In this document: positions 1 through 14,145 of the stretch, piece by piece
How positions within the stretch are numbered: the stretch's first letter is position 1
Layout of the letters: each line of letters opens with the position of its first letter
DNA from: Acidimicrobiia bacterium
GTDB taxonomy: Bacteria > Actinomycetota > Acidimicrobiia > Spongiisociales > UBA5794
NCBI GenBank assembly: GCA_013001485.1
Contig: JABDMN010000289.1
Location: 1 to 14,145 of the forward strand
Direction: 5' to 3'
Length of the DNA stretch: 14,145 bases
The notes under the pieces: model-generated
What the model was told of the DNA's origin: nothing
The model's input: only the letters and a program-made list of their open reading frames with translations
Databases searched by the model: none
Position numbers and translations under genes: made by a program

Positions 1-293
1 GAAATGACCCACTTCGGCTCGGCCATCTGGTCGTACACCTGGCGGAGCACCGGAGCCATCTTCTGGGACAGGCGGCCGGCCACGATCATCAGGTCGGCCT
101 GACGGGGCGACGCCCGAAAGACCTCCATGCCGAATCGGGCGAGGTCATTGTGAGCCGCGCCCGTAGCCATCATCTCGATGGCGCAGCAGGCAAGGCCGAA
201 CGAGACGGGCCACATCGACTGGGTGCGCACCCAGTTCACGGCTTTGTCGAGGTTTGTGGTCAGGAAGCCTGGAGGAGTCGGTTCGCCCGCCAT
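1..293 (-). CDS. nuoB: NADH-quinone oxidoreductase subunit B (NuoB), N-terminal part, cut by window edge
   Basis: The first 97 codons of the complex I subunit that carries iron-sulfur cluster N2, the last cluster before quinone, in the peripheral arm at the membrane surface. The translation contains the family stretch [18 protein letters not shown] with the tandem cysteines C36-C37 that bind N2, followed by [22 protein letters not shown] and the conserved [15 protein letters not shown] region. The other two N2 cysteines lie beyond the edge. The start is the ATG at 293-291, which shares one base with the nuoA stop (TGATG), so translation is probably coupled to nuoA. There is no sign of damage. 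Identity is certain from sequence and position; only completeness is unknown. Confidence 0.97.
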
Positions 294-712
294 CAAGCCG
301 CTTCCTCGGTGACGTCGGGAGCTACCACCTGTCGGTACCTCTCACGGCGGGCCACGTTCCAGTCGAGGGCACCGCGCTTCCACACGTAACCCAGAGTCTC
401 GATGAGCAAGGCGACGAACAGGCCAACGGCGGCAACTCCTGCCCAGCCCAGCTGTTCGAACCGCACTGCCCACAGGAACAGGAAGACGATCTCGACGTCG
501 AAGATCACGAACAGCATCGCAACCAGATAGAACTTGACCGGGAACCTCTGCGCCGGCTCCTGGAGGGGGACGATTCCGCACTCGTACGGGGCCAGCTTCT
601 CGGGTGTGGGATTCCGGGGTGCCAGCCACCACGAGAGGGTGAGAGCGACGGCAGAGAACCCGAGTCCGATCAGGAAGGTAAGCGCGATTGGAAGGTAGTC
701 AGCGAGGGTCAT
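293..712 (-). CDS. nuoA: NADH-quinone oxidoreductase subunit A (NuoA)
   Basis: Small membrane subunit of complex I that helps form the quinone-binding region at the junction of membrane and peripheral arms. The 139-residue length is normal. Three membrane helices are predicted at about residues 5-30, 59-83 and 89-112. Between helices 1 and 2 lies the hallmark loop with YECG (43-46), whose cysteine is the conserved loop cysteine. Helix 2 carries FDVE (71-74) with the conserved acidic residues. The ATG at 712 gives the usual N-terminus, although no convincing Shine-Dalgarno precedes it. It is the first nuo gene, overlaps nuoB by one base, and follows the giant gene across a 135-bp spacer with repeats, so it probably has its own promoter. 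Confidence 0.96.
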
Positions 713-829: not shown

Positions 830-859
830 CGTGTTTGTAGGCAACGCCTACAAACACGG
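829..859 (-). terminator. Perfect 14-bp hairpin containing the stop codon of the giant gene
   Basis: Bases 829-842 and 846-859 are perfectly complementary (14 bp) around a 3-base loop. The TAG stop of the giant gene (850-848) sits inside the stem, as do the preceding two codons. No T-tract follows on the minus strand, so it is not a textbook intrinsic terminator. U-tract-poor terminators or mRNA 3'-end protection are possible roles. The structure is directly visible; the role is inferred. Confidence 0.6.
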
Positions 860-3800
860 AGTAACCACACCCAGGCCTTGCGGGCCCTGGACCAGGCGAT
901 AGTGGAAGTCGGCGATGTTGTTGCCGGTGTCGACACAGCTGCCAGCGGCCCCACCGAGCAGCCGCTCGTAGGTGTGGGTGCCACGGCCTTCGAACTTGGG
1001 CAGCGGAGTGCCCTCTGCGGGAGCGGCGACCATGCCGACCAGGTCGATGGTCGCCAGGCTGCCATCCATCAGGCGCACTGCCCCATCGCCAGTCAGCTCT
1101 GCCGGTCCCGGGATCCCGAAGGGGTTCAGCCCGGACCCGGATCCATAGGGGGCGTCGGCGACAGTGGGGGCCAAAGAGCCTGCGGCGAGGGGTGTCGCCA
1201 GCAGGAAGTGCTCAAACGGGCCAAGAATTGCGGCCGCTCCGAAGCTGAAAGCCGTGCCCCAAGCGCCGCTGTATACCTCGAGCGTCCAACCGTCGAGCGA
1301 CACTGTCGCACTAGTTGCGTTGAACAGCTCGATGAATTCGTCTCCGTCACCCAATGGTCCGTCGCTGCGGAACTCGGAGATCACGACGCTCGATGCCGAG
1401 CTCGGTGGCACGGTCGCGGGGATCGAGCACGGCTCCGCCCCGTCTGTCGTCCCCTCCGGGTTCACTGCCAAGCCGAGCTGATGGCGGAAGTTGTCTGCGT
1501 TGTCACCGGTGTCGACACACGACCCGTGACCAACTCCGGCCCAGTCGGTGCCGTGGAGGCGCTCCATCGATTGGACAGCCGCACCTGGCGCCATTGGTGG
1601 CACGCCCGTGCCCTCTCGAGACGCTGCGCCGCCCTCGGTGGCCGGGGCACCTCCCGGTCGGGGCTCCGTGCCGACTCCGTCGACAACGGCTCCGCCCGAC
1701 GTCACCAGCTCGGCACCGCCGTACAGAGCGACGTCGAAGACAACGTCGCTGTCGGCGTTGGCAAACGTGACCAGGTTGGCGAACAAGTAGTGCGTGGACG
1801 GGGCCAGCGAAGTTGCCGCGGGCACGGTAGCGACCGTGACGAAGGCGGCAGTTCCGTCGGGCGGGTAGACCCTCAAAGTCCAGTTCGAGATGTCGATTGC
1901 TCCACTGGTCGGGTTGTAGATCTCGACGAAATCGTCAGCTCGATCAGTGCTCAGTTCTGAGATCACCACGTTGGCCGCTGGGGTGATCGACCGGGCGAAA
2001 CCGATGCCGTCGTTGTTGAAGGGATCGGGGTCGGTCGAGGTCGTCGATCCGGTGATGATGTAGGGCGTCGACCCGGTGGCCAGAGGGATCACCGCGATGG
2101 TTGCCGAGGCATCGGCGCCGTTGGCCACGTCTCCGATCGTGCAGTCGATGATGTCTGGTCCGACGATGAACACACATCCCGGTGAGCTGTTGGCGGCGTC
2201 GAACGATGCAAGGGCCGGATCGATGGGCATGGTTGCCCGCACGCCTCGAGCCAGGTCGGGACCGTCGTTGTGGAGATAGGCGGTCTGGATGAACGGCGTA
2301 CCCGGGAAGATGATCACTGGATTGTCGACGTCACTCGCCGGAGCGATCCCGATCATCCGGATGTCTGCGATCGGATCGGTCACGGCGATCGTGAAGCTCT
2401 TGGCAGCAGACGTGTCACCGGGGGCTCCACCATCGTCCACTACCTGGATGTCGTAGGTGGCAGTGCCCGTCTCGCCGGCGGCAGACTCGAAGGCCAGCGT
2501 CCCTGCGGCATCGACGGCCGGAGCCGTGGCGAACAAGGCTGGGTTCGAGGTGCCGGTCTGGGCGAGGACGTACGAGTCGACGGCCTGACCTGCCGTGTCC
2601 TCGTCAGGAGTGCCGGCCGTCGTCATCGAGACGAACCCGGCGATGCTCTGCGGCCCGGCGTCGGTGATGACGTCAATGTCGGTGGGATCGCTGATCGTCG
2701 GCGGGTCGTTCACCTCGTTGATCGTCAACGGGAAGGTGATCACCTGGCTGACGTCGTCTGCGTCACCGCGGGTGTTGTTGTCACCCCAATCCAGCAGGGT
2801 GAGGCTGATCGTTACCGTTCCCGATCGATCGGCAACCGGGGTGAAGACGAGGTCGGCCGTGGCATTCGGTGAGGTATACGTGATCGTGGCGTCAGACACG
2901 ATGGACAGATCGCCAGAGGTCGCCGAGACCAGCTCGATGGTCGAAGGAATCTCGACCCAGAGACCAGAGCCGCCGGCGTCGATGCCACCGATTGTGATCG
3001 CCTGGGCGCCACCGTCCTCGTCGATGGAAGGAGTCCCCGGTGCGGCGTTTGGTGGGTCGTCGAGCGGGTTGACCTTGATACTGAAGTCCCGCGAGAACGA
3101 TAGAGCCGGGCCGCCCATGGTGGCGTCGTCGGTGAGCGTTGCGGTCAGGTTTGCAGTGCCATGGGCGTCGGCCTTCAACGTGAAGGTCAGGTCGCCAGTA
3201 GCGGCGTCGATGGCCGGGAGACCGGCTGGATCGAACATGTCGAGATCGCCTGGTCCTTGTGGATCGACCGTGAAGGTCAGCACCTGGCTCGACTCGTCCC
3301 ACAGTCCCGGTGGAGCGTCGGTGGCGGTTTCGATGTTGATGGCCCAAGCCGGGAACGTGTGAGGGCCGGTGTCCTCGTCGACCTCAGGGTCGGCGGAGTC
3401 GTCGAACTTCGGCTCGTCGTTGACGGGATCCACTGTGATGTCGAACGAAACCGTTGGGCTCTCGTCGACGCCTCCATTGGCGGTGCCGCCATCGTCACGC
3501 AACGACACCACCACCGTCGCCGTGCCATGGACGTACTTCTCATACTGGAACGTGAGCTTGCCGTTCTTGTCGATCTCCGGGAGGTCGCGGAAGTAGGCAG
3601 CTTCAGTCGCGTTGGGGACGTTCACCTCGAACTTCTCGTCACCCGCAAGATTGTCCAGCGCCTGGTCGGCCTCGTTGGCGGGACCCAGGACGATGTCGGT
3701 CGCCCAGGGGTCGACGCTCTGGCCACCATCGCTCTCCAAAATGCCGGTGATGTCGGTCCCTGGCGTGAACGTTGGGACGTCGTTGCGCTCGAGGATGGTG

Positions 3801-6800
3801 ACAGTCACGCTCTCGGTGGAGCACTCGGCATTGGTGTCACAGATCTCGTACACGAACACGTCGACGCCGAACATGTCCGCGTCGAGCACATAGGTGACCG
3901 TCCCGTCGGGGAACGCCGTGATGGTCCCCAGCGAGAGATCCGCCGGGGTGGGATCGCCGTCGTGGGGGTCGTCGGGGTCGAGATCGGTCCGAATCATCAG
4001 CGACGTCAGGTCGATGTCGGTGTCGATGTCGTTCGCCGCGACATCGATGGTGACCGTCGACAGGTCGTCCTCTATGTAGTCGGGGTCGCTTGGTCCCGGG
4101 TACAGGTCGGGGTTGGTCGCCGGAGGCAGGTTGGCTGCCGTGTACACGAAACGGCTCGGATAGTCGGCGGTGGTGGCGATCCATAGATCGCCGTGCTTGA
4201 CGATGACCTTGGCCACGAGCGCTCGGCCCACACCAACCGTATGGGTCAGCGTGTCGAGGTTGAACTGGTGATTGACCCAGTCGGCGACTCCGTCGTTCCA
4301 GTTGTTCTTGTGGACGTCCTCTTCGACAAGCAGCGTGCACGATGTCGGAACGAGCGCGTCGCAGTCATAGATGCCCACGCCGATGTGGCCAGCTTCACCG
4401 AGCGTGAAGTCGGCAATGGTGCTCCACAAGTCGAGGCTGAGCGGCCCGTCGAGCTCGAGCGGGACGGCGGGCGTGATCGACCAGGTGACGAACTCGCCTG
4501 GACCGGCGGTATCGAGATCGAATTCGCCTGCGACGACGGTGAACCCCGGATTGGAGTCGCCGTCGACATCGGGCACCGGGTCTGCAGCCGCCGGAGGAGT
4601 GCCCACCATCATGAACCCGCCGTACGGATCGAGTGAGTCGCCGAGATACTGGAAGCCACCGAGGACGCCTGAGTTCACGGTGACGGTGACGAGGGCGACA
4701 TCGGACAGGCCCGTGCCGTCGAGCACCTCATATTCGAACGTGTCCGACCCCGAGAACCCGAGGTTCGGGTCGTACGTGAAGCCGCCGTCGGCAAACAGGG
4801 TCAGAGTTCCGTCGGTCGGAGCCGTGAAAGGAACCGTGTTGACCGTCATCGGGTCCTCGTCGTGATCGACGTCGTTGCCGATGACCCCGGGTGCGGCGAC
4901 CGTCAGGAGTTCATCCATGCCGGTGAGGTACCCGTCGTTGCCGGCCTCGGGGCTATCGGGGATCGGGTTGACCACGATTTCGACGGTGCCTGTCGTGCTC
5001 AGCGCTGACGTGTCAACGATGTCATACGTCCAGGTGATGACGCCGTGGTGGTCTTCGGGGAGGGCGTACTCGAAGACACCGTCACCGAGGTGAGTCACCG
5101 CGCCCTCGCTGACACCGCTGTCGTCGTAGCCAGAGAACGTGATCGAGTCGCCGGTGTCGGGATCCCAGTCGTTGACCAGCGCGTCGATTGTGATTGTCGT
5201 CACCGAGTCCTCGTCGACCGTGGTGCCATCCGGTTCGGCAACCGGGGCATCGGGCGAAGGCGTGACAGCGAGGGTGACCGAGCCCGCGCCGACTCCACCA
5301 TTGCCATCTGCGATGCCGTAGGTGAACGCCTCGGATCCGTCGAAGTCGGGGTCCGGCGTATAGGTGAATGATCCGCCGCCGAGCGGAGTCAAGGTCCCGT
5401 TGAGGATGAAGGCGTCGTCGTGGCCAGCGAGGGTGACTGGGTCGCCGTCGACATCTGTGTCGTTGGCGAGAACGTCGAAGGTGACGCTGCCGTCTTCAGG
5501 CACCGCCGGCGCATCGGCAACGGCAACCGGGTCGTCGTTGACGTTCGACACTGTGACGGTCACCGAAGTCGTGACTGGGAACATGCCGTCGGACACGGTG
5601 ACGTCGAACGTGTCGCCCCCGACGAAGTCGGCAGGCGGTGTGTAGGTGACGGTTCCGTCCGGGTTCACCACTGCAGTGCCATGAATCGGCGCCGTCACCG
5701 CCACCGCACCCACCGGGTCGAGATCGGCGTCGGAGAACGAGTCGCCAGGCGCGAAGGTCGATGCCATGTCCTCGGTGACCGAAGCCACAACCGGGCCTTC
5801 CTGGACCGGCGGATGGTCGACGTTGGTGACATCGATCAACACGGTGACCGGGACGGTCGCTGTGCCGTCCGTCACCTGATAGGTGAACGAGTCAGGCCCC
5901 GTGTAGTTGAGGGGCGGCGAGTAGATCAGGCTGCCTTCAACGATCGAGCCACCACTCACCGAGACGGCGTCGAACCCGGACATGCTGAGGGTGTCACCAT
6001 CGACATCGGTGGCACCGCCCAGCGGGTCGAACTCAAACGTTTCGTCCTCGGTGATGGCCGCGGGGCCCGGGCCGGGAACGACTGGTGCGTCGTTGACTGC
6101 GGAGACAGTGACGAAGGCGGATGCAGTGCCACAGGCGCCGTCAAAGTCGCATACCGAGAACGCAAATCCGTCGACACCGTTTGCGTCGGCAGATGGCGAA
6201 TAGGTGATCACGCCGGCCGGAGACACGGTTGCGCTACCGAAGGCGGGCGCCACAACGATGCTGACGGAGGATGGATCGATGCCGTCGTCGACGTCGGAGG
6301 CGAGCGCCACCGCATCGATCGTCACCGAGCCATCTTCCGCCATCGAGCGAGAAGCGTCCTCGACGACTGGCACGTCGTTGACGGGTTCGACAGTGACGGT
6401 CACCACGGCGTCGTCGACGAGACCTTCGGGGTCGGCGAGCTCATAGGTGAAGGCGTCGACGCCGGCGAAGTCAGGGTTGGGTGTGTACAGGATCGTCCCG
6501 GTTTCGGCGTCGACCTCGACGAGGCCGTTGACCGGGTCGACGGTGATAGTCACCAAAGTGGGATCGATCTCCGCCTCATCTGAGTCGTTGGCAAGCACGA
6601 AGGCGATGACATCGGTGTCCTCGTCGGTGGTCACAGCGTCGTCCTCGACAACCGGTGGCTCATTGGCAGCAACCACCGACAGCACAACCGTGGCAGGTGC
6701 CGAGACTCCGCTGTCGTCGGCGATTGCATACACGAAGGAGTCCTCACCCGAGAACCCCTCGTCCGGGATGTAGGTCACGGTGCCGTCGATGTTGATGATC

Positions 6801-8137
6801 ACGGCGCCGAAATCGGGCACTCGGGCGATCGAGATGACACCGCCGGCGGCGATTGCGTCGTTGGCCAGAACAGCTAGCTCGGCCGGTTCTCCGCCCGCGA
6901 TCTCGAAGGCGTCGTCGGCAGGAATCGTGACGTCGGCGGTGCGGGCAACCGGCACGTACACGGGCTCGTCGGATTCGAACTGGGCGAGCACCGGCGGCGG
7001 CTCCGGAAGGGGCAAGGGATCCTCGCCGGGGATGTCGACGACACCGGTCGAGATGGCGCCAACCGCGCCGACCGCGGCTACACCGGCGACGCCGACGGAC
7101 GTTCCAACTGACTGGATGGCGCCGGCGAAGTTGAGGAAGGGCAACTGACCCAACCACGACAATGGCCCGGCGACCCAGCGCAGCCGTCCCATCGAGAGAC
7201 CAAGGAAGGCACGGACTACGTGCGGGTCGAACTGGCTGCCGGCGTGCCTGGCCAGTTCCTCGCGAGCCACGGCGTTGGGGAGCGGCTTCTTGTACGAACG
7301 CACCGTCGTCATCACGTCGTAGGCGTCGGCAACGCACACGACCCGGCCGGACATCGAGATCTCCTCGCCCTTCTTTCCGTTGGGATAGCCGTTGCCGTCG
7401 TAGCGCTCGTGATGGTCGAGGATCGCTCCGTTCCATTCCCCGAGCCACTCCCACAACGGCTCGCAGATCTCTTTGCCATAAACCGGGTGCTTCTTGATCT
7501 CCATCCACTCGTCGTCGTCGAGCTTGCTCGGCTTGTTGAGGATGTCGGTGTCGACCTTCAGCTTGCCGATGTCATGGAGGAGAGACGCCCACCGCAACTT
7601 GGCGCGGTCCAACTCGGAGAGACCCATCTCCTCCGCGAGCATGTCGGTGTAGGCGCGCACCCGTTCGGCGTGGCCGCGAGTACGCGGATCGTGGGTATTG
7701 AGAGCAGTCGTCAGCTGGAGGATCAGTTCGACGGCGTGGGTGATGTCGTCGTCCTTGCCGAGAGCCTCCGCCTCGGCCAGCGTCGCCTTGATCTGTTTGA
7801 CCGAAGAGCCGGACCGCAACGCGGTCTTGAATCGAGACGGCGACTTGTCGGGGAAGACCATCGTCATCGACAGCAACGCGGCGAGGGGGAGGAACCGTCG
7901 GGCGATCTTGTCCACGGTGAACAAGACAGTTGTCGAGGCAGCGATGATGATCGCCCACCATCCGAGAAGGCCCCAGACCGTCGTGGCCGGCGGTAGCTGA
8001 CGCGACAACCAGATCGAGAACAGGATCGAGGCGAGGATGGGGACAATGAGGATGACTGCGCGAACAACGAACGCAAGGATCGGCTTTCCCGACCACTTGC
8101 TGTCCTCGGCTACACCCTTGAATTTCTCGTCAGCCAT
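848..8137 (-). CDS. Giant membrane protein: cytoplasmic HD-GYP phosphodiesterase domain fused to extracellular cadherin/Ig-like repeats and lamin-tail domains
   Basis: A 2429-residue protein. Helices at about 19-45 and 53-77 are followed by a short hydrophobic stretch (82-95) and the motif VFPDKSPSRF (94-103), which I recall from actinobacterial HD-GYP proteins. The HD-GYP domain (about 130-320) is complete: H156, H188-D189, H217, the DHHERYDGNGYP motif (241-252) and D271. Known HD-GYP enzymes hydrolyse c-di-GMP in the cytoplasm. A third hydrophobic segment (332-364) should carry the chain outward. Then come eight ~95-residue cadherin/Ig-like repeats (about 400-1155), a jelly-roll-like insert (1160-1335), five more cadherin-like domains (1338-1921), a DUF11-like domain (1923-2053) and two lamin-tail domains (from 2055 and 2249). 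No LPXTG or other C-terminal anchor is seen. The ATG at 8137 gives a charged N-terminus before helix 1; upstream GGGGAA is a weak ribosome site. No frameshift is apparent. A single-chain adhesin/signalling role is inferred. Confidence 0.9.
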   Translation of the reverse strand: MADEKFKGVAEDSKWSGKPILAFVVRAVILIVPILASILFSIWLSRQLPPATTVWGLLGWWAIIIAASTTVLFTVDKIARRFLPLAALLSMTMVFPDKSPSRFKTALRSGSSVKQIKATLAEAEALGKDDDITHAVELILQLTTALNTHDPRTRGHAERVRAYTDMLAEEMGLSELDRAKLRWASLLHDIGKLKVDTDILNKPSKLDDDEWMEIKKHPVYGKEICEPLWEWLGEWNGAILDHHERYDGNGYPNGKKGEEISMSGRVVCVADAYDVMTTVRSYKKPLPNAVAREELARHAGSQFDPHVVRAFLGLSMGRLRWVAGPLSWLGQLPFLNFAGAIQSVGTSVGVAGVAAVGAVGAISTGVVDIPGEDPLPLPEPPPVLAQFESDEPVYVPVARTADVTIPADDAFEIAGGEPAELAVLANDAIAAGGVISIARVPDFGAVIINIDGTVTYIPDEGFSGEDSFVYAIADDSGVSAPATVVLSVVAANEPPVVEDDAVTTDEDTDVIAFVLANDSDEAEIDPTLVTITVDPVNGLVEVDAETGTILYTPNPDFAGVDAFTYELADPEGLVDDAVVTVTVEPVNDVPVVEDASRSMAEDGSVTIDAVALASDVDDGIDPSSVSIVVAPAFGSATVSPAGVITYSPSADANGVDGFAFSVCDFDGACGTASAFVTVSAVNDAPVVPGPGPAAITEDETFEFDPLGGATDVDGDTLSMSGFDAVSVSGGSIVEGSLIYSPPLNYTGPDSFTYQVTDGTATVPVTVLIDVTNVDHPPVQEGPVVASVTEDMASTFAPGDSFSDADLDPVGAVAVTAPIHGTAVVNPDGTVTYTPPADFVGGDTFDVTVSDGMFPVTTSVTVTVSNVNDDPVAVADAPAVPEDGSVTFDVLANDTDVDGDPVTLAGHDDAFILNGTLTPLGGGSFTYTPDPDFDGSEAFTYGIADGNGGVGAGSVTLAVTPSPDAPVAEPDGTTVDEDSVTTITIDALVNDWDPDTGDSITFSGYDDSGVSEGAVTHLGDGVFEYALPEDHHGVITWTYDIVDTSALSTTGTVEIVVNPIPDSPEAGNDGYLTGMDELLTVAAPGVIGNDVDHDEDPMTVNTVPFTAPTDGTLTLFADGGFTYDPNLGFSGSDTFEYEVLDGTGLSDVALVTVTVNSGVLGGFQYLGDSLDPYGGFMMVGTPPAAADPVPDVDGDSNPGFTVVAGEFDLDTAGPGEFVTWSITPAVPLELDGPLSLDLWSTIADFTLGEAGHIGVGIYDCDALVPTSCTLLVEEDVHKNNWNDGVADWVNHQFNLDTLTHTVGVGRALVAKVIVKHGDLWIATTADYPSRFVYTAANLPPATNPDLYPGPSDPDYIEDDLSTVTIDVAANDIDTDIDLTSLMIRTDLDPDDPHDGDPTPADLSLGTITAFPDGTVTYVLDADMFGVDVFVYEICDTNAECSTESVTVTILERNDVPTFTPGTDITGILESDGGQSVDPWATDIVLGPANEADQALDNLAGDEKFEVNVPNATEAAYFRDLPEIDKNGKLTFQYEKYVHGTATVVVSLRDDGGTANGGVDESPTVSFDITVDPVNDEPKFDDSADPEVDEDTGPHTFPAWAINIETATDAPPGLWDESSQVLTFTVDPQGPGDLDMFDPAGLPAIDAATGDLTFTLKADAHGTANLTATLTDDATMGGPALSFSRDFSIKVNPLDDPPNAAPGTPSIDEDGGAQAITIGGIDAGGSGLWVEIPSTIELVSATSGDLSIVSDATITYTSPNATADLVFTPVADRSGTVTISLTLLDWGDNNTRGDADDVSQVITFPLTINEVNDPPTISDPTDIDVITDAGPQSIAGFVSMTTAGTPDEDTAGQAVDSYVLAQTGTSNPALFATAPAVDAAGTLAFESAAGETGTATYDIQVVDDGGAPGDTSAAKSFTIAVTDPIADIRMIGIAPASDVDNPVIIFPGTPFIQTAYLHNDGPDLARGVRATMPIDPALASFDAANSSPGCVFIVGPDIIDCTIGDVANGADASATIAVIPLATGSTPYIITGSTTSTDPDPFNNDGIGFARSITPAANVVISELSTDRADDFVEIYNPTSGAIDISNWTLRVYPPDGTAAFVTVATVPAATSLAPSTHYLFANLVTFANADSDVVFDVALYGGAELVTSGGAVVDGVGTEPRPGGAPATEGGAASREGTGVPPMAPGAAVQSMERLHGTDWAGVGHGSCVDTGDNADNFRHQLGLAVNPEGTTDGAEPCSIPATVPPSSASSVVISEFRSDGPLGDGDEFIELFNATSATVSLDGWTLEVYSGAWGTAFSFGAAAILGPFEHFLLATPLAAGSLAPTVADAPYGSGSGLNPFGIPGPAELTGDGAVRLMDGSLATIDLVGMVAAPAEGTPLPKFEGRGTHTYERLLGGAAGSCVDTGNNIADFHYRLVQGPQGLGVVTPCL
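851..1975 (-). other. Tandem lamin-tail modules at the C-terminus of the giant protein
   Basis: Two related modules. Module 1 (residues 2055-2239, 1975-1421) starts VVISELSTD and has WTLRVY. Module 2 (residues 2249-2429, 1393-851) starts VVISEFRSD and has WTLEVY. Each ends in a shared tail, ERL(H/L)G...GSCVDTG(D/N)N...(N/D)F, and a final PC pair. The core matches bacterial lamin-tail (LTD) domains, usually found on secreted or surface proteins. The pairing indicates an internal duplication. The two cysteines per tail (2207 and 2237; 2401 and 2428) could form one disulphide in each. Confidence 0.75.
2375..4126 (-). other. Second set of cadherin-like domains in the giant protein
   Basis: Residues 1338-1921. 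One ~115-residue cadherin/Ig-like repeat (DLSTVTIDVAANDIDTDIDL, ending ERNDVP) is followed by four longer (~105-120 residue) domains. Their boundaries are marked by VDPVNDEP, VNPLDDPP, INEVNDPP and AVTDP. The VND(x)P linkers and D-rich stretches are typical of calcium-binding extracellular cadherin-like folds. These four differ from the first array in length and motif pattern (for example HGTATV and HGTANL), so they are a separate sub-family. Confidence 0.7.
4133..4660 (-). other. Jelly-roll-like insert between the two repeat arrays of the giant protein
   Basis: Residues 1160-1335 have no cadherin-type boundary. The segment begins GGFQYLGDSLDPYGGFMM and contains alternating strand-like segments such as PLSLDLWSTIADF, HIGVGIYDCD and ALVAKVIVKHGDLWIATTAD. 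It includes the cysteine pair C1259/C1267. The beta-rich pattern resembles a carbohydrate-binding or other beta-sandwich module, but I do not recognise a named family. Confidence 0.4.
4673..6940 (-). other. First array of eight cadherin/Ig-like ~95-residue repeats in the giant protein
   Basis: Residues 400-1155 hold eight successive repeats. Boundaries read PPVVEDD, VPVVEDA, APVVPGP, PPVQEGP, DPVAVAD, APVAEPD and SPEAGND. Most units contain an acidic DED/EDG start, an (A/V)ND(x)D turn, a (T/S)YxP strand and an (F/Y)TY or FxY strand before (A/S)D. This is the pattern of bacterial tandem-95/Big_9-type extracellular domains, which are often calcium-stiffened. The copies are clearly diverged, so the array looks old rather than recently amplified. 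Confidence 0.8.
7178..7750 (-). other. HD-GYP domain of the giant protein
   Basis: Residues 130-320. All expected metal- and substrate-binding positions of HD-GYP phosphodiesterases are present: H156, the HD pair 188-189 in LLHDIGKLKV, H217, H242-H243 and D271. The GYP signature is complete (RYDGNGYP) and is followed by GEEI and VADAYD. Known members cleave c-di-GMP to pGpG or GMP. Nothing suggests a dead enzyme. Its place between the second and third predicted helices puts it in the cytoplasm. Confidence 0.9.
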
Positions 8138-8270: not shown

Positions 8271-8295
8271 TGATCGCCAGCCAAGCTGGCGATCA
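8271..8295 (-). terminator. Perfect 11-bp hairpin containing the stop codon of the polyprenyl reductase gene
   Basis: Bases 8271-8281 and 8285-8295 pair perfectly around a 3-base loop. The TGA stop of the reductase gene (8295-8293) forms the base of the stem. As with the hairpin at 829-859, there is no T-run, the loop is 3 bases, and a heptamer cluster follows in the direction of transcription. It may terminate or protect the reductase transcript; the role is inferred. Confidence 0.55.
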
Positions 8296-9528
8296 GCGGG
8301 GTTCGGGGCCCAAGGCCACGATCTGCTCTATTGCCCGGTACACCCGCTCGGATGTGCCCAGATCCTCGGGCTCGAGCAGGTTGGCCATCACCTTGAGCAC
8401 CCACTCCATCAAAGGCCGCGAACGCAGCCCGGCGTGGACCAGTGCCCGCATCATGGCGGGCCGGCCGATGGCGATGGCGAACGCCCGGGCAACGCGGTGG
8501 TAGCGGCCGTAAATGTCGTCCAGAGCCTGCGGATACTCGAGCAGCGCACCATCATTGCCGGCGAGGTACTCGGCAATGTACCCCGCGGCCATCCGGCCGG
8601 TCTCGTAGGCGTAGTCGATGCCCTCCCCGTTGAACGGGTTCACTCCCCCGGCGGCGTCACCAACGAGCACCCAGTTCGGTCCGGCCTTGGGGCCGATCGA
8701 GAACGACATCGGCAGCTTGCCTCCGGTCGGTTCGAGAACCACGTCGTCGAGACTCGTCTGCCAATGCTCGGGCAGACCTTCCACGTACGCCTCGAGCACC
8801 CGCGAGGTGTTGACGTCCTTCCACCCCTTGAAGGTGGACAAGACGCCGACACCGATGTTGATGGTCCCGTCGCCCAGCGGGAATATCCAGCCATAGCCAG
8901 GCAGCGATCGCCCATCGCGGTCACGGATGTCGAGCTGGCTCTCGAGGTAGGTGTCAGTGGAGTTGGGGCTTGAGTAGTAGCCGCGCACCGCAAGCCCGAA
9001 CGGGTAGTCGCGTCGGCGATAGGCACCGAGCGCTCGACCAAACCGGGAATTCGAACCGTCGGCGACCACGACCACCCGCGGTTCGATCCGTTCCACGTCC
9101 CCGTTCTCGCGGAGCTCGACCGCGGCGAGCTTGCCTCCCTCGACGATCGGCTTCGCCTCCACGCCGGTGCGGACAACCGCCCCTTGCTTCTCGGCGAGCA
9201 TCGCGACCTGATGGTCGAGGTCGAGACGTCTCATCACCGCACCCCAATTGGGGAAGACCGAGTGTTCGGGCCACGGGAGTTCGATTGAGTGGTCGCCCGC
9301 GAAAGCGCGGAGACCGGTGATCTTGTGGAGTTCTGGAACGTCGAAGTCGAAGCCCATTTCGATGAGTTCGTGGATCGCCCGTGGGGTCAACCCGTCGCCA
9401 CAGGTCTTGTGGCGGGGAAAAGTCTTCTTCTCGACGACGACGGCATCGATGCCGTTTCGGGCCAGCCAATGACCGGCAGCGGCACCTCCTGGTCCGCCAC
9501 CAACGATCAGAACGTCGGGATCCGCCAT
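8293..9528 (-). CDS. FAD-dependent geranylgeranyl/polyprenyl reductase, likely MenJ-like menaquinone-chain saturase
   Basis: A 411-residue flavoprotein of the geranylgeranyl reductase family. The N-terminal dinucleotide fold has VLIVGGGPGGAAAG (6-19). KTCGDGLTPRA (41-51) is the family signature. VVADGSNSRFGRALG (154-168) is the DG motif, and GDAAGGVNPFNGEGI (290-304) is the second FAD contact. Family members reduce isoprenoid double bonds. In actinobacteria a member near nuo genes acts on the menaquinone tail (MenJ), which fits the nearby nuo and cytochrome genes, but archaeal-type lipid or chlorophyll-chain relatives look similar, so the substrate is inferred. The ATG at 9528 precedes the FAD fold by four residues. 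No Shine-Dalgarno is seen; a TANNNT box seven bases upstream suggests a leaderless start. No damage is visible. Confidence 0.88.
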   Translation of the reverse strand: MADPDVLIVGGGPGGAAAGHWLARNGIDAVVVEKKTFPRHKTCGDGLTPRAIHELIEMGFDFDVPELHKITGLRAFAGDHSIELPWPEHSVFPNWGAVMRRLDLDHQVAMLAEKQGAVVRTGVEAKPIVEGGKLAAVELRENGDVERIEPRVVVVADGSNSRFGRALGAYRRRDYPFGLAVRGYYSSPNSTDTYLESQLDIRDRDGRSLPGYGWIFPLGDGTINIGVGVLSTFKGWKDVNTSRVLEAYVEGLPEHWQTSLDDVVLEPTGGKLPMSFSIGPKAGPNWVLVGDAAGGVNPFNGEGIDYAYETGRMAAGYIAEYLAGNDGALLEYPQALDDIYGRYHRVARAFAIAIGRPAMMRALVHAGLRSRPLMEWVLKVMANLLEPEDLGTSERVYRAIEQIVALGPEPR

Positions 9529-9563: not shown

Positions 9564-9575
9564 GAGCCGCGGCTC
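9564..9575. repeat. 12-bp perfect palindrome overlapping the cytochrome c stop codon
   Basis: GAGCCGCGGCTC reads the same on both strands and includes two bases of the TGA stop at 9576-9574. As RNA it could only make a short stem. It may be chance in GC-rich DNA, or a third example of stop-proximal dyads in this window. Confidence 0.3.
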
Positions 9576-10449
9576 AACCAGCAGCTTCGACCGCTTCGTC
9601 CGTCAAGCCACAGGCACCCTGAGCTGTGCCGAAGTCCTCGCCACCGAAGGCGACGCGTTCGTAGAGCACTACCGAGGCAAGCTCTTCGGGAGTCAGGTCC
9701 GGATAGCCGGGCATGGCGGCACCGGAGCCAAGCACAGGCTTGGCTGTGTCGCCGTAGGTCGCGTCGGGCCAATCGTTCGATCCGATAGCGACCCATTCCA
9801 CGTGATCGACGCATTGGCTGAAGACCTCGACGATGGCCCCACCGGTGAATGCCGGCCCGGTGCCACCGCCACCTGCGCTGCCGTGGCACGACGCACATGC
9901 CGCTCCGCGGGAGCCAAGCCCGTTGTCGTAGATGTCTCTGCCGATGGTGAAGAAGTTGACGACCTCGAAGCCGTAGGCCGTGCCGTCGCAGTTCTCGGCG
10001 ACACCGGTCGCCGGGTCGATGGCCAGCTGACCCGCCGTGCCGCAGTCGGGACCGTTGGGCCCGGTCATGCCGTACAACAACGCAAGCGCCGGGATGATCA
10101 CGAATGCGGCCACGAGCCACCGAGGGAGACCAGGCGACTTCACCGGTTCGGGCTCAGGCTCGGAAACCGGCGCAGCTTCGGCCAGGGGTTCGAGCACCTC
10201 CACGACAGGTCCGGCGTCGGCGACCTCGCCCCCGGGATCGGCCGGGGCGGCGTCTGCCACAGGCGTAGGGGTGGCCGGCTCTGCTGCTGGGACCGACGCA
10301 GCCCCCGCAGGGACTTCTTCGCCAGCCCATTCGGCAATCACGACCTCGACCGGCTTGCCTTCGGCTCCGGCCCGCGCATATGCAGACCGCATCACCATGT
10401 CGACGGGATAGCCGTGGGCTTCGGCGATCTTGGCGGCTAGCTCTTGCAT
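9574..10449 (-). CDS. Membrane-anchored mono-heme cytochrome c with cytoplasmic N-terminal extension
   Basis: A 291-residue protein. The ATG at 10449 overlaps the stop of the upstream fusion gene (TGATG), so this start is preferred to an in-frame ATG at 10533 inside that gene. Residues 1-45 look like a compact helical domain (LAAKIAEAHGYPVDM, RSAYARAGAEG, VEVVIAEWAG) that I do not recognise. A Pro/Ala/Glu-rich linker (46-108) follows, then one membrane helix (about 109-128). The outer domain has heme motif CASCH (185-189) and probable axial M246 in AAMPGYPDLT. Extra cysteines 136, 154, 213 and 280 may form disulphides. It probably carries electrons in the same chain as the upstream CcoNO-like protein, in the position where CcoP would sit, but it has one heme motif rather than two. 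Confidence 0.88.
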   Translation of the reverse strand: MQELAAKIAEAHGYPVDMVMRSAYARAGAEGKPVEVVIAEWAGEEVPAGAASVPAAEPATPTPVADAAPADPGGEVADAGPVVEVLEPLAEAAPVSEPEPEPVKSPGLPRWLVAAFVIIPALALLYGMTGPNGPDCGTAGQLAIDPATGVAENCDGTAYGFEVVNFFTIGRDIYDNGLGSRGAACASCHGSAGGGGTGPAFTGGAIVEVFSQCVDHVEWVAIGSNDWPDATYGDTAKPVLGSGAAMPGYPDLTPEELASVVLYERVAFGGEDFGTAQGACGLTDEAVEAAG

Positions 10450-12389
10450 CAGTCCTCCAGAGTGCCCAAGTAGGCGACGAGAGCGCTCATCTCGGCGTCG
10501 GACAGATAATCGTATGAAGGCATCGTCGACCACGACCGGGCCGCCTGCGGATCGGCGAGGTGGGCAGCGAGAGCAGCTGGGTCGTTTGTGCGCTCGGCAA
10601 GATGCATCAGGTCGGGCCCCATCCGCTGCTCCCCGAGCAACCCCGGGGTCTCATACGCGTAGTCACCAGGAAGGCTGACACCACCGAGGCCCACGTCGGA
10701 CACGGCTGCCCGCACCTGCTGCGTGTGGCAGTACCAGCAACCCTCGGCGAGATAGACACGGCGGCCGTCGGCGGCATCTCCTTCATATTCCCGAGCGGCA
10801 TCGGCGAGCAGCGTCGGAGAGGTGTGATCCCCCTCGAGCATGGGGAAGAGTCCGACAAAAAGGAACGACGCCAAGAACAGGCCGACTGCGCCAACAGTCA
10901 CCCGGCGGCGTCGCATCGGCCCGACGGTGACGATGTCCTCGAAGAGATCTTCTTCGACCTCCTCGTCGGCGTCTTCGGCGTCATCGGCTTCGCCACCGAG
11001 CTCCCCAACAGCTGCAACAGAGGCTCCCCGCCCCAACAGCACCATGAGGAACACGAGCGTTCCGACGAAGTACAAACCAATCCCGATGACGCGAACGACG
11101 TGGTGAGCTGCCAACGGAGCGACGAAGCCAAGAGCGCCGTCACCAACGGGCAGGGCCTCTTGGGCGTTGGCAGCTCCAACCCAGTAGAGACCTTGCTGGA
11201 GGCCTGCCACCCACATCGACCCGAGAGCCAGAGCGAGTCCGACGGTGGACAGGCGCAGGTGGAACGTCGCTGCTCGAGTGGCCACCGCACCGGTGTGCTT
11301 CGCCATCTCGTGGTACCCGAAGGCGAACAGCCAGAACGAGAACGCTCCCAGATAGAGCAGCCAGTCGTATGCGGACATCCACTCGGTGAACTGGACGATC
11401 CCGCCGGCCGACCGGAGAGACTGAACGAGGTTCACGATCACGGCAAGGGCAAACATCCCGGCGCCGGCAAGGGCGAACTTCAGAGGCACAGAAGCAAAAG
11501 CCTTATCCCAGCTCCCTCGCATGGTGACGGCGATGTCGGCGAGAACGATGAGAGCGGGCACGACGAGCCCGATGGAGAACATCGTGCCGATGGTTTCGAG
11601 CCAGTCGGGCGCTGGGCTGAACACGAGGAAGCGGGGAGCCGTCCACGCCCACACGAACGCCAGCGACCAGAAGCCGAGCCTCGTGAGTTGACGGTTGTTC
11701 GGCGCGCTGGCTCCGGTCTCGGCGGGAATCAGATAGGCGACGATGCCCAGCCCGGCGATAGCGAGGAACATGCCAACGAGGCCGGCACGGTAGAACGACG
11801 TCAGGATTGCGGAGTTGACACCCGTGATGCCGGGAATGTTGCCGACGATATGGAGCAGCACCAGCCACCACATCGCCGCAACGAAGAACCAGGCCGGGGC
11901 GGTGAGGTCGCGGTCGCGGCCCGCAGTGGCGCTTACGACCCGCGCCGCTGCGATCAAGCCGACGAGCACGATGGCGTCCGCCCACAACGGGAGCTCGAGC
12001 AGATACCTGCCCTCGGATCCACCAAAGAGGACGGCCAGGCCGCCCGCCAGGTATCCGAGCGTGGTCATCCCGAGCGCGACGAACGCCGTGGTCGGGCTGG
12101 CCAGTCGCGCTCCAGTGACACGCGGGACGATGGCAAACGCAGCAGCAATCGAGCCGAGGACGAGCCAACCATTGACCACGTCGGACATGGCGTTGGGCAG
12201 CATGCGCCCGTAGGAGAGGAAGCCGACTCCGCCGAGGAACCCCGGAGCAACGAGCTGGATCGAGATGATCAGAAGCCCCAGAGTGCCGAACACGAGAAAG
12301 ACGCCAGCGATGATCAATTGGAGCCGCGCCACGGGCCGTTCTTCGGGCGCAGCGGACTGCACCTCGTCGATGATCTCGGTGACGCTCAT
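10449..12389 (-). CDS. CcoN-like/CcoO-like fusion protein lacking the oxidase metal ligands
   Basis: A 646-residue protein. Residues 20-455 hold about 12 hydrophobic segments that align with cbb3-oxidase subunit I. Anchors are YGR..P (60-65), PDW.ET.G.MFSI (261-273), GSWDK (292-296) and FTEW (334-337). The six histidines of CcoN that bind low-spin heme b, heme b3 and CuB fall on A67, A202, R253, F254, Y341 and W343, and the cross-linked tyrosine falls on W247. An acidic linker (465-486) and one helix (497-515) lead to a CcoO-like domain with EGCWYCHTQQVR (549-560; heme motif CWYCH 551-555), MGPDLMHLA (590-598) and axial M623 in STMPSYDYL. Oxygen or NO reduction by this chain is unlikely. A membrane electron-transfer or structural role is inferred. 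The gene heads a coupled pair with the downstream cytochrome c. The alignment was made from memory. Confidence 0.85.
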   Translation of the reverse strand: MSVTEIIDEVQSAAPEERPVARLQLIIAGVFLVFGTLGLLIISIQLVAPGFLGGVGFLSYGRMLPNAMSDVVNGWLVLGSIAAAFAIVPRVTGARLASPTTAFVALGMTTLGYLAGGLAVLFGGSEGRYLLELPLWADAIVLVGLIAAARVVSATAGRDRDLTAPAWFFVAAMWWLVLLHIVGNIPGITGVNSAILTSFYRAGLVGMFLAIAGLGIVAYLIPAETGASAPNNRQLTRLGFWSLAFVWAWTAPRFLVFSPAPDWLETIGTMFSIGLVVPALIVLADIAVTMRGSWDKAFASVPLKFALAGAGMFALAVIVNLVQSLRSAGGIVQFTEWMSAYDWLLYLGAFSFWLFAFGYHEMAKHTGAVATRAATFHLRLSTVGLALALGSMWVAGLQQGLYWVGAANAQEALPVGDGALGFVAPLAAHHVVRVIGIGLYFVGTLVFLMVLLGRGASVAAVGELGGEADDAEDADEEVEEDLFEDIVTVGPMRRRRVTVGAVGLFLASFLFVGLFPMLEGDHTSPTLLADAAREYEGDAADGRRVYLAEGCWYCHTQQVRAAVSDVGLGGVSLPGDYAYETPGLLGEQRMGPDLMHLAERTNDPAALAAHLADPQAARSWSTMPSYDYLSDAEMSALVAYLGTLED

Positions 12390-12507: not shown

Positions 12508-13104
12508 ATGACCGATCGACAGCGACAACTCCTTGGCATTGGCGCGGCTGCCATCGGCGTCGCCCTGATCTTCATCGGGGCCCTCTTCGCCCACTTCACC
12601 GGTCTGCCCGAAACCAACAACCTCGGAGTCGAGATCTACTCGTTCATGCCTCGCGGATGGGGTTGGCAATTGCTCGGCCAGGTCGTGGCAGTCACCGGCT
12701 CCCAGATCGCGCTGGCCGGTGTCGCCATCGGGTTCTTGTGGAAGCGAGATCTCACCTGGGCTCGGGCAACGATCGGTGCGTTCCTGTTCACTGCCGAGAT
12801 GCTCATCCTGTTCGGGATCGTGCCCAACCAGTGGTTGACGCTGGCCCAGACGACCTGGCAATGGACGCCCCAGAAGATCTTCATCACGCTGCCTAGCTGG
12901 CTCACGCTGAACAACGAGGTGTCGATCTCGTATTCTGCCCTGAAGGACATCGTGTCTGGCACCTACGCCGCAGTCCTCCTCGGCGCGATCGCGATCACGA
13001 TGGTGAGGTGGCAGGACTACCAGAAAGAGGCCGCCGCGAAGGCCAAGGAGACTCAGGTCTCGATCTATGGCCGGCCGCTGCGAGCCCCGGGAGAACAGAG
13101 CTGA
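12508..13104 (+). CDS. Four-helix membrane protein of unknown function, first gene of the ferredoxin/cytochrome b operon
   Basis: A 198-residue protein I do not recognise. Predicted membrane helices lie at about 9-30, 53-78, 83-104 and 147-167. The C-terminal 30 residues are charged (YQKEAAAKAKETQ) and probably cytoplasmic. It has no cysteine and a single histidine (H29), so it cannot itself bind two hemes in the manner of a b-type cytochrome. The loop between helices 3 and 4 is rich in tryptophan (NQWLTLAQTTWQWTPQK, SWLTLNN) and presumably faces out. The ATG at 12508 follows GGAG (12501-12504). Its stop shares a base with the ferredoxin start (TGATG), implying coupled translation and a membrane-anchor or assembly role for the ferredoxin or cytochrome b. 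That role is inferred from context alone. Confidence 0.85.
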   Translation: MTDRQRQLLGIGAAAIGVALIFIGALFAHFTGLPETNNLGVEIYSFMPRGWGWQLLGQVVAVTGSQIALAGVAIGFLWKRDLTWARATIGAFLFTAEMLILFGIVPNQWLTLAQTTWQWTPQKIFITLPSWLTLNNEVSISYSALKDIVSGTYAAVLLGAIAITMVRWQDYQKEAAAKAKETQVSIYGRPLRAPGEQS

Positions 13105-13550
13105 TGGCGAAGAACGACGTCTGGTTCGAGACGCCTCCCATGCGAGACGACTATCAGCTCGCCCCGGTCTCGGCGGATTACCTGAAGAACGCGGTGAAGC
13201 CGAAGCAGTTCCTCCACATCGACCAGGCGGAATGCATCTTGTGCGAAGGGTGCGTGGACATCTGCCCCTGGAAGTGCATCCACTACATATCGGTGGACGC
13301 GGTGGCCGAAGCCACCGACGTGGCCGACCCTCGCGAGGGGAACGAAGGCCTTGGGATGTTCATCGTCGATGAGGACGAGTGCACTCGGTGCGCCCTGTGC
13401 ATCGATCGGTGCCCGACCGGCGTGATCACGCTCGGCAAGTTCGAGGGCTCTCTCGCCGCACAGGCGCAGCAGATCGACATCGCGCCGTGGGAGGTCGACA
13501 CCGGACAGCGGGATCACAAGAACGGATACCTGTACGGGGTGCGCTGGTGA
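13104..13550 (+). CDS. Two-[4Fe-4S] ferredoxin subunit encoded with a b6-type cytochrome b
   Basis: A 148-residue iron-sulfur protein with two complete cluster motifs. [12 protein letters not shown] gives C44, C47, C50 and C54; [12 protein letters not shown] gives C93, C96, C99 and C103. An extra cysteine (C58) follows the first motif. The clusters are separated by about 38 residues, longer than in small bacterial ferredoxins, and a 40-residue N-terminal arm plus a 45-residue tail suggest a dedicated complex subunit rather than a free carrier. No signal peptide is seen, so it should be cytoplasmic. It starts in the overlap with the upstream membrane protein gene and ends 52 bases before the cytochrome b gene. 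Feeding electrons to, or taking them from, the cytochrome b complex is a reasonable inference. It is not a Rieske protein: no CTHLGC-type motif is present. Confidence 0.92.
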
Positions 13551-13602: not shown

Positions 13603-14145
13603 GTGGCTAACGGGAACGGACGTATCGGCTTGGCGGAGCGGGCTGCGGAGGCAGCCAGCAAGCTCCGTGGCAGCCAGGTGTGGTCGAGCATCTTCCGGCC
13701 GGGCTCGCCGTTCCGGGAGGGATACACCGACAGCCCCCGGAACCGCTCATACGTCATCATGAACAACGTGCTCTATCACCTTCACCCGGTGAAGGTGAAG
13801 CGGCACGGAGTCCGGCTTTCCTACACGTTGTGTCTGGGAGGCATGTCGTTCTTCCTCTTCATCCTCTTGACGATCACAGGCATCTTCCTGATGTTCTATT
13901 ACCGGCCCACGTCACCCCAGGCCTACATCGACATCCAGGCTCTCGCCACCGACGTGCCCTTCGGCCAGCTCGTACGCAACATGCATCGGTGGGGCGCCCA
14001 CGCCATGGTGCTCGTGGTGTTCCTGCACATGGCCCGGGTCTTCTATCACGGCGCCTACAAGCCGCCACGCGAGTTCAACTGGGTCGTGGGAATCATCCTC
14101 TTGCTGCTGACGCTGCTCCTCTCGTTCACCGGCTACCTGCTGCCG
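13603..14145 (+). CDS. b6-type cytochrome b of a quinol-oxidising bc complex, N-terminal part, cut by window edge
   Basis: The first 181 residues of a membrane cytochrome b, starting at GTG with a strong ribosome site. Helices are predicted at about 72-98, 130-147 and 158-176. H128 (NMHRWGAH) and H142 (VFLHMARV) are 14 apart, as required for one ligand to each heme b. FYYRP (98-102), HRW (128-130) and [11 protein letters not shown] (153-163) match cytochrome b6 and its relatives. C77 in LCLGG aligns with Cys35 of chloroplast b6, which covalently binds heme c_n. The N-terminal extension (about 1-70, ending HPVKVKRHG) is longer than in b6. The complex should oxidise menaquinol and pass electrons to a cytochrome c. 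The Rieske partner and subunit IV are not in the window and may lie downstream. Confidence 0.93.

Follow-up and report, generated by a model that had tools for sequence, protein, structure and literature searches.

The described respiratory systems close to the locus analyzed here include cbb3 oxidases and assemblies that join a bc complex to a terminal oxidase. In the bc1-cbb3 supercomplexes CcoN is an active oxidase, and known CcoP subunits carry two CxxCH motifs. The bcc-aa3 supercomplex of Mycobacterium smegmatis is not known to contain a CcoN-like subunit, a 4Fe-4S protein, or a split cytochrome b6/subunit IV. Known nitric oxide reductases (NORs) keep the six histidines of the superfamily, and Core 1/Core 2 are a former processing protease kept in mitochondrial complex III. 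To our knowledge, the conversion of an oxidase subunit into a part of another complex is a path known in principle from elsewhere and not from this superfamily. We analyzed a stretch of 14,145 nucleotides (contig JABDMN010000289.1 of assembly GCA_013001485.1; the window) from an Acidimicrobiia bacterium, the source being an incomplete metagenome-assembled genome (MAG; 2.25 Mb, 405 contigs, 83% complete). The minus strand contains at 10449..12389 an open reading frame (ORF) for a protein of 646 amino acids, in which a CcoN-like domain devoid of its metal ligands, termed pseudo-CcoN, is fused to a CcoO-type cytochrome c.

The Pfam families COX1 and FixO matched residues 21-406 (E 5.5e-30) and 515-635 (2.3e-20) of this protein, respectively, and the solved structures nearest by sequence were the CcoN and CcoO chains of cbb3 oxidases. 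The CcoN-like domain covers approximately residues 20-450 (11040..12332, minus strand); hhalign and joint alignments place no histidine at its six ligand positions and no tyrosine at the cross-link. The CcoO-like part, which spans approximately residues 490-646 (10452..10922, minus strand) and is supported by FixO and by PDB matches to CcoO, combines a single transmembrane helix with a cytochrome c domain of the monoheme type, which has a CWYCH heme c attachment site (residues 551-555; 10725..10739, minus strand) and M623 as a candidate methionine ligand. The top NCBIfam model was the bifunctional cbb3 subunit I/II, with a score of 229 bits that lies far below the cutoff of 1080. The nearest named relative (85% identity) is an Acidimicrobiia bacterium, and records at NCBI and JGI name such ligand-less genes cbb3 oxidase subunit I. 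Our literature searches, made among open-licence papers, listed no description of a ligand-less CcoN. The authors of a classifier for the superfamily state that they removed sequences in which the six histidines are missing (PMC3084760); such filters may be the reason why the family went unnoticed. Another article credits cbb3 oxidases to MAGs of the Acidimicrobiales (PMC8357290), and the genes behind that statement may or may not be ligand-less.

The evidence for the loss of the ligands comes first from a comparison of two independently built profiles, one of 35 fused relatives and one of true CcoN, which hhalign aligned with a probability of 100 and an E value of 3.1e-67. In Pseudomonas stutzeri CcoN we take H60, H207, H257, H258, H345, and H347 to be the ligands and Y251 to be the cross-linked tyrosine. 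These residues were paired with A67 (H60), A202 (H207), R253 (H257), F254 (H258), Y341 (H345), W343 (H347), and W247 (Y251), so that every one of the six histidines is replaced in the window protein. An earlier note, made from the sequence alone, had proposed exactly these assignments. H180, H360, H365, H377, H429, and H430, the histidines whose placement at canonical ligand positions would, according to the note, have refuted it, lie off these positions, in columns occupied in true CcoN mainly by Y, Y, I/M/L, S, I/V, and W, respectively. The heme site that the note had described as intact at the C terminus is indeed so, with C551, C554, H555, and M623 invariant in all 35 fused rows. A misalignment that masks real ligands is ruled out by the separate-profile alignment, the fold match, and the columns of the six histidines named in the note. 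The columns homologous to the NOR ligands of heme b, heme b3, and FeB are equally free of histidine, as read from the alignment to CcoN and not to NorB.

We then sorted 147 rows according to the number of histidines in the six ligand columns, leaving out beforehand seven fragments or CcoO-only ORFs. There were 68 rows with none, 2 with one, 1 with five, and 76 with six, and nothing in between. The sole row with five histidines is a true CcoN truncated at the first column, and 76 of the 77 true rows thus keep all six. The 70 ligand-less rows include two duplicates (L227 and L241); among the 68 distinct ones, 66 lack any histidine and 2 have one, with one column unread in 4 rows. A tyrosine at the cross-link position was found in 0 of these 68 rows. 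Since the same residues are gone in 68 distinct rows and the heme c site is invariant in 35 of 35, the loss is more than chance. A first homology list contained 19 proteins, of which 18, the window protein included, lack the ligand set (two of them with a single histidine); the remaining one, P0020, is a true CcoN with six. In a later search, all 120 proteins among the matches listed (the best 120 of 284) lacked the set, one of them having a single histidine. Five of the true CcoN rows come from other families of the same phylum.

The ligand-less rows nevertheless retain the frame of a CcoN, as the comparison of residues invariant in true CcoN illustrates. Structural invariants are conserved in the 68 rows (W245, 0.99; G403, 0.97; G407, 0.94; W410 and T339, 0.93; W267, 0.91), whereas those of the pocket and the channel or proton path are gone (Y251, 0; W203 and N208, 0.01; G324, 0.03; Y317, 0.07; Q323, 0.12). 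The predicted fold of pseudo-CcoN is very close to the structures of CcoN, to whose C-type (cbb3) subunits it is also most closely related in sequence. Ratios of nonsynonymous to synonymous substitution rates (dN/dS) were 0.067-0.220 for the CcoN domain in 13 pairs and 0.053-0.163 for the CcoO domain in the 7 of these pairs in which they were measurable, several dS values being close to saturation; the gene is thus under purifying selection. The earlier note had suggested a repurposed scaffold and not decay, and the ligand loss across many families, the low dN/dS, and the CcoN-like fold model agree with this view. In a tree calculated without the ligand columns, ligand-less and true rows fall on either side of one branch (SH-aLRT, an approximate likelihood ratio test, 100; one change). 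This tree contains 61 of the 70 ligand-less and 31 of the 77 true rows, with near-copies of more than 85% identity and part of the true rows excluded; it was obtained by a quick method, is unrooted, and has long branches and odd compositions that were flagged. An affiliation with NorB was rejected, as the profile prefers CcoN (193 bits versus 64 and 30 bits for NorB).

The genomic setting is conserved. Immediately downstream of the fused gene, at 9574..10449 on the minus strand, lies the gene of a membrane-anchored, CcoP-like monoheme cytochrome c. This gene is preceded by GGAGG and starts with an ATG that overlaps the stop codon of the pseudo-CcoN/CcoO gene (TGATG). On the plus strand, a divergent bc operon opens with TM198 (12508..13104), a protein with about four hydrophobic segments and without a Pfam family over cutoff, followed by a protein with two 4Fe-4S motifs (13104..13550; Pfam Fer4 models), the start of which overlaps the TM198 stop, and by a cytochrome b6-like subunit (13603..14145; Pfam Cytochrome_B, 1.5e-28) that is cut at the window end. 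The window therefore holds the first half and the start of the second half of a conserved set of nine genes. One strand encodes the CcoP-like cytochrome c and CcoO/pseudo-CcoN; TM198, the 4Fe-4S protein, cytochrome b6, subunit IV, Rieske protein, diheme cytochrome c, and TM250 are encoded by the opposite strand. All nine are present in 37 of 53 stretches (window included), and where genes are absent, the stretch or its contig mostly ends there. In 50 of the 53 stretches the two halves diverge; each of the remaining 3 has one half cut off by a contig end. Linkage of the module to cytochrome b6, subunit IV, Rieske protein, and diheme cytochrome c is thus conserved; Pfam supports the identity of the last three in L126. 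A 4Fe-4S protein is encoded in 50 of the 53 stretches; that of the window lies inside the Rieske/cytochrome b operon. Of the genomes of 60 relatives, 47 have both pseudo-CcoN and the 4Fe-4S protein of the locus (E <1e-60), and 7 have neither. The 6 discordant genomes comprise G004 and G018, in which pseudo-CcoN was not found and the bc operon meets a contig end at TM198 (L225 and L226), which makes them contig-end effects, G012, G036, and G052, with the gene near a contig end or as a fragment, and G050, which has no 4Fe-4S gene.

The CcoP-like protein has one CxxCH and an invariant methionine. When a profile of 34 such partners was compared with the PDB, CcoP chains ranked first, over short stretches, with the actinobacterial bc1 cytochrome c subunits close behind. 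The FixP_N anchor was detected in 10 of the 34 relatives, all below cutoff and the window protein not among them. Judged from sequence, the locus may therefore encode a full N-O-P set, as a cbb3 oxidase would have.

A shared sequence motif may connect the module with the bc core. Near the N terminus of subunit IV we found a motif of about 35 residues, P-E-x-L-x-x-R-S-A-E-A-R-A-x-A-x-G-x-x-V-E-x-V-L-A-E-W-x-G, and a profile derived from subunit IV matched 47 of 47 subunits IV (by construction) and 38 of 49 CcoP-like cytochromes. The HMMER inclusion threshold was passed by 43 of 46 real N-terminal parts of CcoP-like proteins and by 0 shuffles, with a noticeable composition bias. The profile had no match on cytochrome b, Rieske protein, diheme cytochrome c, TM250, TM198, the 4Fe-4S protein, NuoA, NuoB, or the reductase encoded next to the module. 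The motif is also present on separate CcoO proteins, in 16 of the 20 distinct loci with a recognized separate CcoO ORF, and in L142 the copy on CcoO does not differ from that on the CcoP-like protein in the part that was compared. It is rare in 12 whole genomes; in G056 (E 0.1) it occurs in the two expected places only. In G037, G051, G044, G041, G285, and G105 it is additionally found on an ORF that is 366-432 codons long, contains hydrophobic stretches, and is separated from a CtaD-like gene by 1.5-4.3 kb. Motif-bearing sites are located at 9574-10449 in the window, 6009-6710 in L126, 9313-10512 in L263, and 7040-9439 in L267. No convincing Pfam family corresponds to the motif, which we would interpret, from its distribution over the sequences, as a putative docking tag that holds the pseudo-cbb3 module and the bc core together, along with an aa3 oxidase in some families.

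The respiratory equipment of the 60 genomes was inspected next. PF00115 matches above 150 bits were present in 53; the best pseudo-CcoN scored 125 and none reaches 150. In all 30 strong PF00115 proteins that were fetched, the motifs GHP[EH], HH, and H[FY]H are present, and COX2 was found in 54 of the 60 genomes (53 over cutoff). Most of the genomes examined thus encode a true heme-copper oxidase away from this locus. CcoS/FixS was matched in 0 of the 60, with a model of just 44 positions that in a control found the protein in 2 of 14 genomes, one of them over cutoff. The cytochrome b of the locus is the sole PF13631 match in 19 of the 60 genomes, including the single-contig G056, and 16 of these 19 have a strong PF00115 match.

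On these grounds we propose, with a probability of roughly 60%, that the cofactor-free CcoN fused to CcoO, together with the CcoP-like protein, is a former cbb3 oxidase (N-O-P) that lost its oxygen chemistry and now serves the Rieske/cytochrome b complex, encoded on the other strand, as an accessory module. As heme ligands are missing from the CcoN domain, CcoO and the CcoP-like protein must pass their electrons elsewhere. In the proposed mechanism, menaquinol would be oxidized by the cytochrome b6/subunit IV/Rieske core and the electrons would then move via the diheme cytochrome c; pseudo-CcoN, as a block of many helices, would anchor and position the hemes c of CcoO and the CcoP-like protein, and these would relay the electrons to CuA of a separate aa3-type oxidase. 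The ligand-less protein is thus probably now a frame for electron-carrying cytochromes; the physical assembly, the direction of electron flow, and the role as a scaffold are what we infer. Of the two roles considered in the earlier note, that of a quinol-complex partner gains support from the conserved neighborhood with the Rieske/cytochrome b operon and from the motif common to subunit IV and the module cytochromes. That of an electron wire could hold for the hemes c in CcoO and in its CcoP-like partner and not for the CcoN domain, which has no invariant histidine, cysteine, or internal methionine in the 35 fused rows. An extended version of the proposal, which we regard as less likely than not, states that an Actinomycetota branch, including an abundant marine group, respires via an obligate bc/dead-cbb3/aa3 supercomplex. 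In that case, a whole N-O-P oxidase would have lost its chemistry once, long ago, and been kept as a wiring hub between complex III and aa3. The parts would be held together on the cytoplasmic side by copies of the 35-residue motif, acting in docking and carried by subunit IV, by CcoO and the CcoP-like protein, and, in some families, by a membrane protein encoded in the aa3 cluster.

A number of observations weigh against the proposal of an accessory module. (i) Linkage and a shared motif are no proof of one common complex, and the descent of the partner from CcoP is not proven, given the short PDB matches and the subthreshold FixP_N. (ii) The motif is on no fused CcoO, it is alanine rich, with its composition bias flagged by HMMER, and among the 12 whole genomes G440 has no convincing match and G064 only weak ones. 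(iii) The gene set is variable: L125 (G050) and L228 (G295) lack a 4Fe-4S gene between TM198 and cytochrome b while keeping pseudo-CcoN, a recognizable TM198 is absent in L223 and L224, and in L147 neither diheme cytochrome c nor TM250 is seen in the remaining 3.8 kb of its contig. (iv) The cytochrome c part of the fold model is poorly predicted, with blocks at 29-70 in the confidence score pLDDT. (v) Among the 19 genomes with a sole cytochrome b, G017 and G030 (56-60% complete) and G026 (95%) have no strong PF00115 match.

Several other explanations were considered. The one that survives best, although we judge it unlikely, is that pseudo-CcoN is an assembly factor, which aids the insertion or maturation of c-type cytochromes or of the bc complex without being a lasting subunit. 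Such a role is compatible with a CcoN domain that has no conserved redox ligand and with two more distant loci, in which the two divergent halves are separated by genes that resemble, by eye, those for cytochrome c maturation of the Ccm type (L253, 9200-16500) or the ResB/CcsA type (L223, 9446-12454). Against it stands the fusion of many members to a cytochrome c whose heme and methionine residues are invariant, which suggests a redox complex. Somewhat less probable is an input module, in which the cytochromes c would take electrons from a periplasmic donor and pass them in reverse flow to the bc complex, with the 4Fe-4S protein as the low-potential exit. The frequency of the 4Fe-4S gene, given above, would fit this view, as would the motif on an ORF of G105 (L267) that by eye resembles a 2-oxoacid:acceptor oxidoreductase; against it speak the aerobic oxidase in most of the 60 genomes, the two loci that keep the module without the 4Fe-4S gene, and the fact that no linked donor enzyme was seen. 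We give still less credit to membrane work of the CcoN domain without hemes, as a quinone site or a proton or ion path. R62, E132, Y218, D262, and R326 are nearly invariant in the fused rows, but the channel residues of true CcoN are lost, and the columns of R55, E125, and R330 are kept in true CcoN as well, so that the conserved polar residues may be structural. That a heme or metal is held by new ligands is very improbable: histidines occur in 51% (H377 column) and 46% (H360 column) of the 70 rows, yet histidine, cysteine, and internal methionine are never invariant across the 35 fused rows, for which reason we rejected a new ligand set, and the missing CcoS/FixS matches also speak against it. 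A decaying oxidase gene or a sequencing artefact, for which one can cite L148 (G027), with its pseudo-CcoN/CcoO gene split over two frames by a frameshift or an assembly error, is discounted by the dN/dS values, the conserved locus, and open frames, internal stops being "none" for almost all matches listed.

The distribution indicates that this is an old, widespread family and not a single oddity. The window protein was matched in 51 of the 60 relatives. A family profile retrieved matches in 136 of 296 genomes of the class at E 1e-3, of which the weak ones may be other oxidases, and, for the phylum, in 14 of 296 genomes at 1e-15, a figure that also counts true CcoN; ligand columns were read in fetched rows only. 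Ligand-less members were found within the order in families f1-f8, in the class also in f12, f13, and f15, and in the rest of the phylum in f61, f65, and f91; true CcoN was found in f71, f72, and f80. Among the best 80 of 122 relatives, the ligand-less loci are labeled Acidimicrobiia or Actinomycetota, apart from L034 (Acidobacteria), L036 (bacterium), and L101 (Acidimicrobiaceae, with the isolate name Acidobacteriota). L034 and L036 group with f8 in the tree and may be misbinned. The genomes of family f12 measure about 1 Mb, its loci have a G+C content of 34-37%, and two homologues of its protein bear Tara names; these features presumably fit Candidatus Actinomarina. In L218-L222, from AT-rich, probably marine genomes of about 1 Mb, the same locus has separate ccoN and ccoO genes and a strongly diverged pseudo-CcoN, close homologues of which carry the JGI name cbb3 oxidase subunit 1.

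The remaining features of the window lie on the minus strand. A flavoprotein resembling geranylgeranyl/menaquinone reductases (8293..9528; NCBIfam GG-red-SF above and MenJ below cutoff) is encoded next to the CcoP-like gene; its gene is present in 29 of the 53 stretches and fits a menaquinol-using chain. A partial nuoB and nuoA (3..712; Pfam) were found at the window start, and nuoA and nuoB occur in 17 and 15 of the 53 stretches, respectively. Between the nuo genes and the reductase gene lies a giant ORF of 2429 amino acids (848-8137), in which by eye membrane helices and an HD-type phosphohydrolase-like stretch are followed by many cadherin-like repeats; L032 and L114 have ORFs resembling its first 400 residues at the corresponding place.

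These data suggest how a respiratory enzyme can turn into a structural part beside another complex, and they correct the annotation of genes that are named cbb3 oxidase subunit I and have no metal ligands. The existence of obligate assemblies of bc complex and oxidase in Acidimicrobiia becomes a testable question. Compared with cbb3 oxidase (3mk7, 6xkw, 8smr), the locus shares the fold, the closest sequences, the order of N, O, and a CcoP-like cytochrome, and the heme c site of CcoO; it differs in that pseudo-CcoN has lost the heme/copper ligands, the cross-linked tyrosine, and the channel residues, in the single CxxCH of the CcoP-like protein, in the lack of a CcoS match, and in its location at a bc-complex locus. 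The bc1-cbb3 supercomplexes of Rhodobacter capsulatus (6xkw) and Pseudomonas aeruginosa (8smr) combine a bc complex and a CcoN/O/P module as proposed here, but the CcoN of the present locus cannot be an active oxidase, and the contact would be a predicted one. With the actinobacterial bcc-aa3 supercomplex (M. smegmatis; 6adq, 6hwh) the locus has in common a diheme cytochrome c with a bc core and an aa3 oxidase, and the cytochrome c subunit of that supercomplex has weak similarity to the CcoP-like profile. NorB (4xyd, 3o0r) is more remote, with far weaker profile scores (64 and 30 bits, against 193 for CcoN), and the six histidines of the superfamily are absent here. Finally, although Core 1/Core 2 of mitochondrial complex III descended from a processing protease and not from an oxidase, they offer the same pattern, namely, a former enzyme that was retained as a structural part of complex III.

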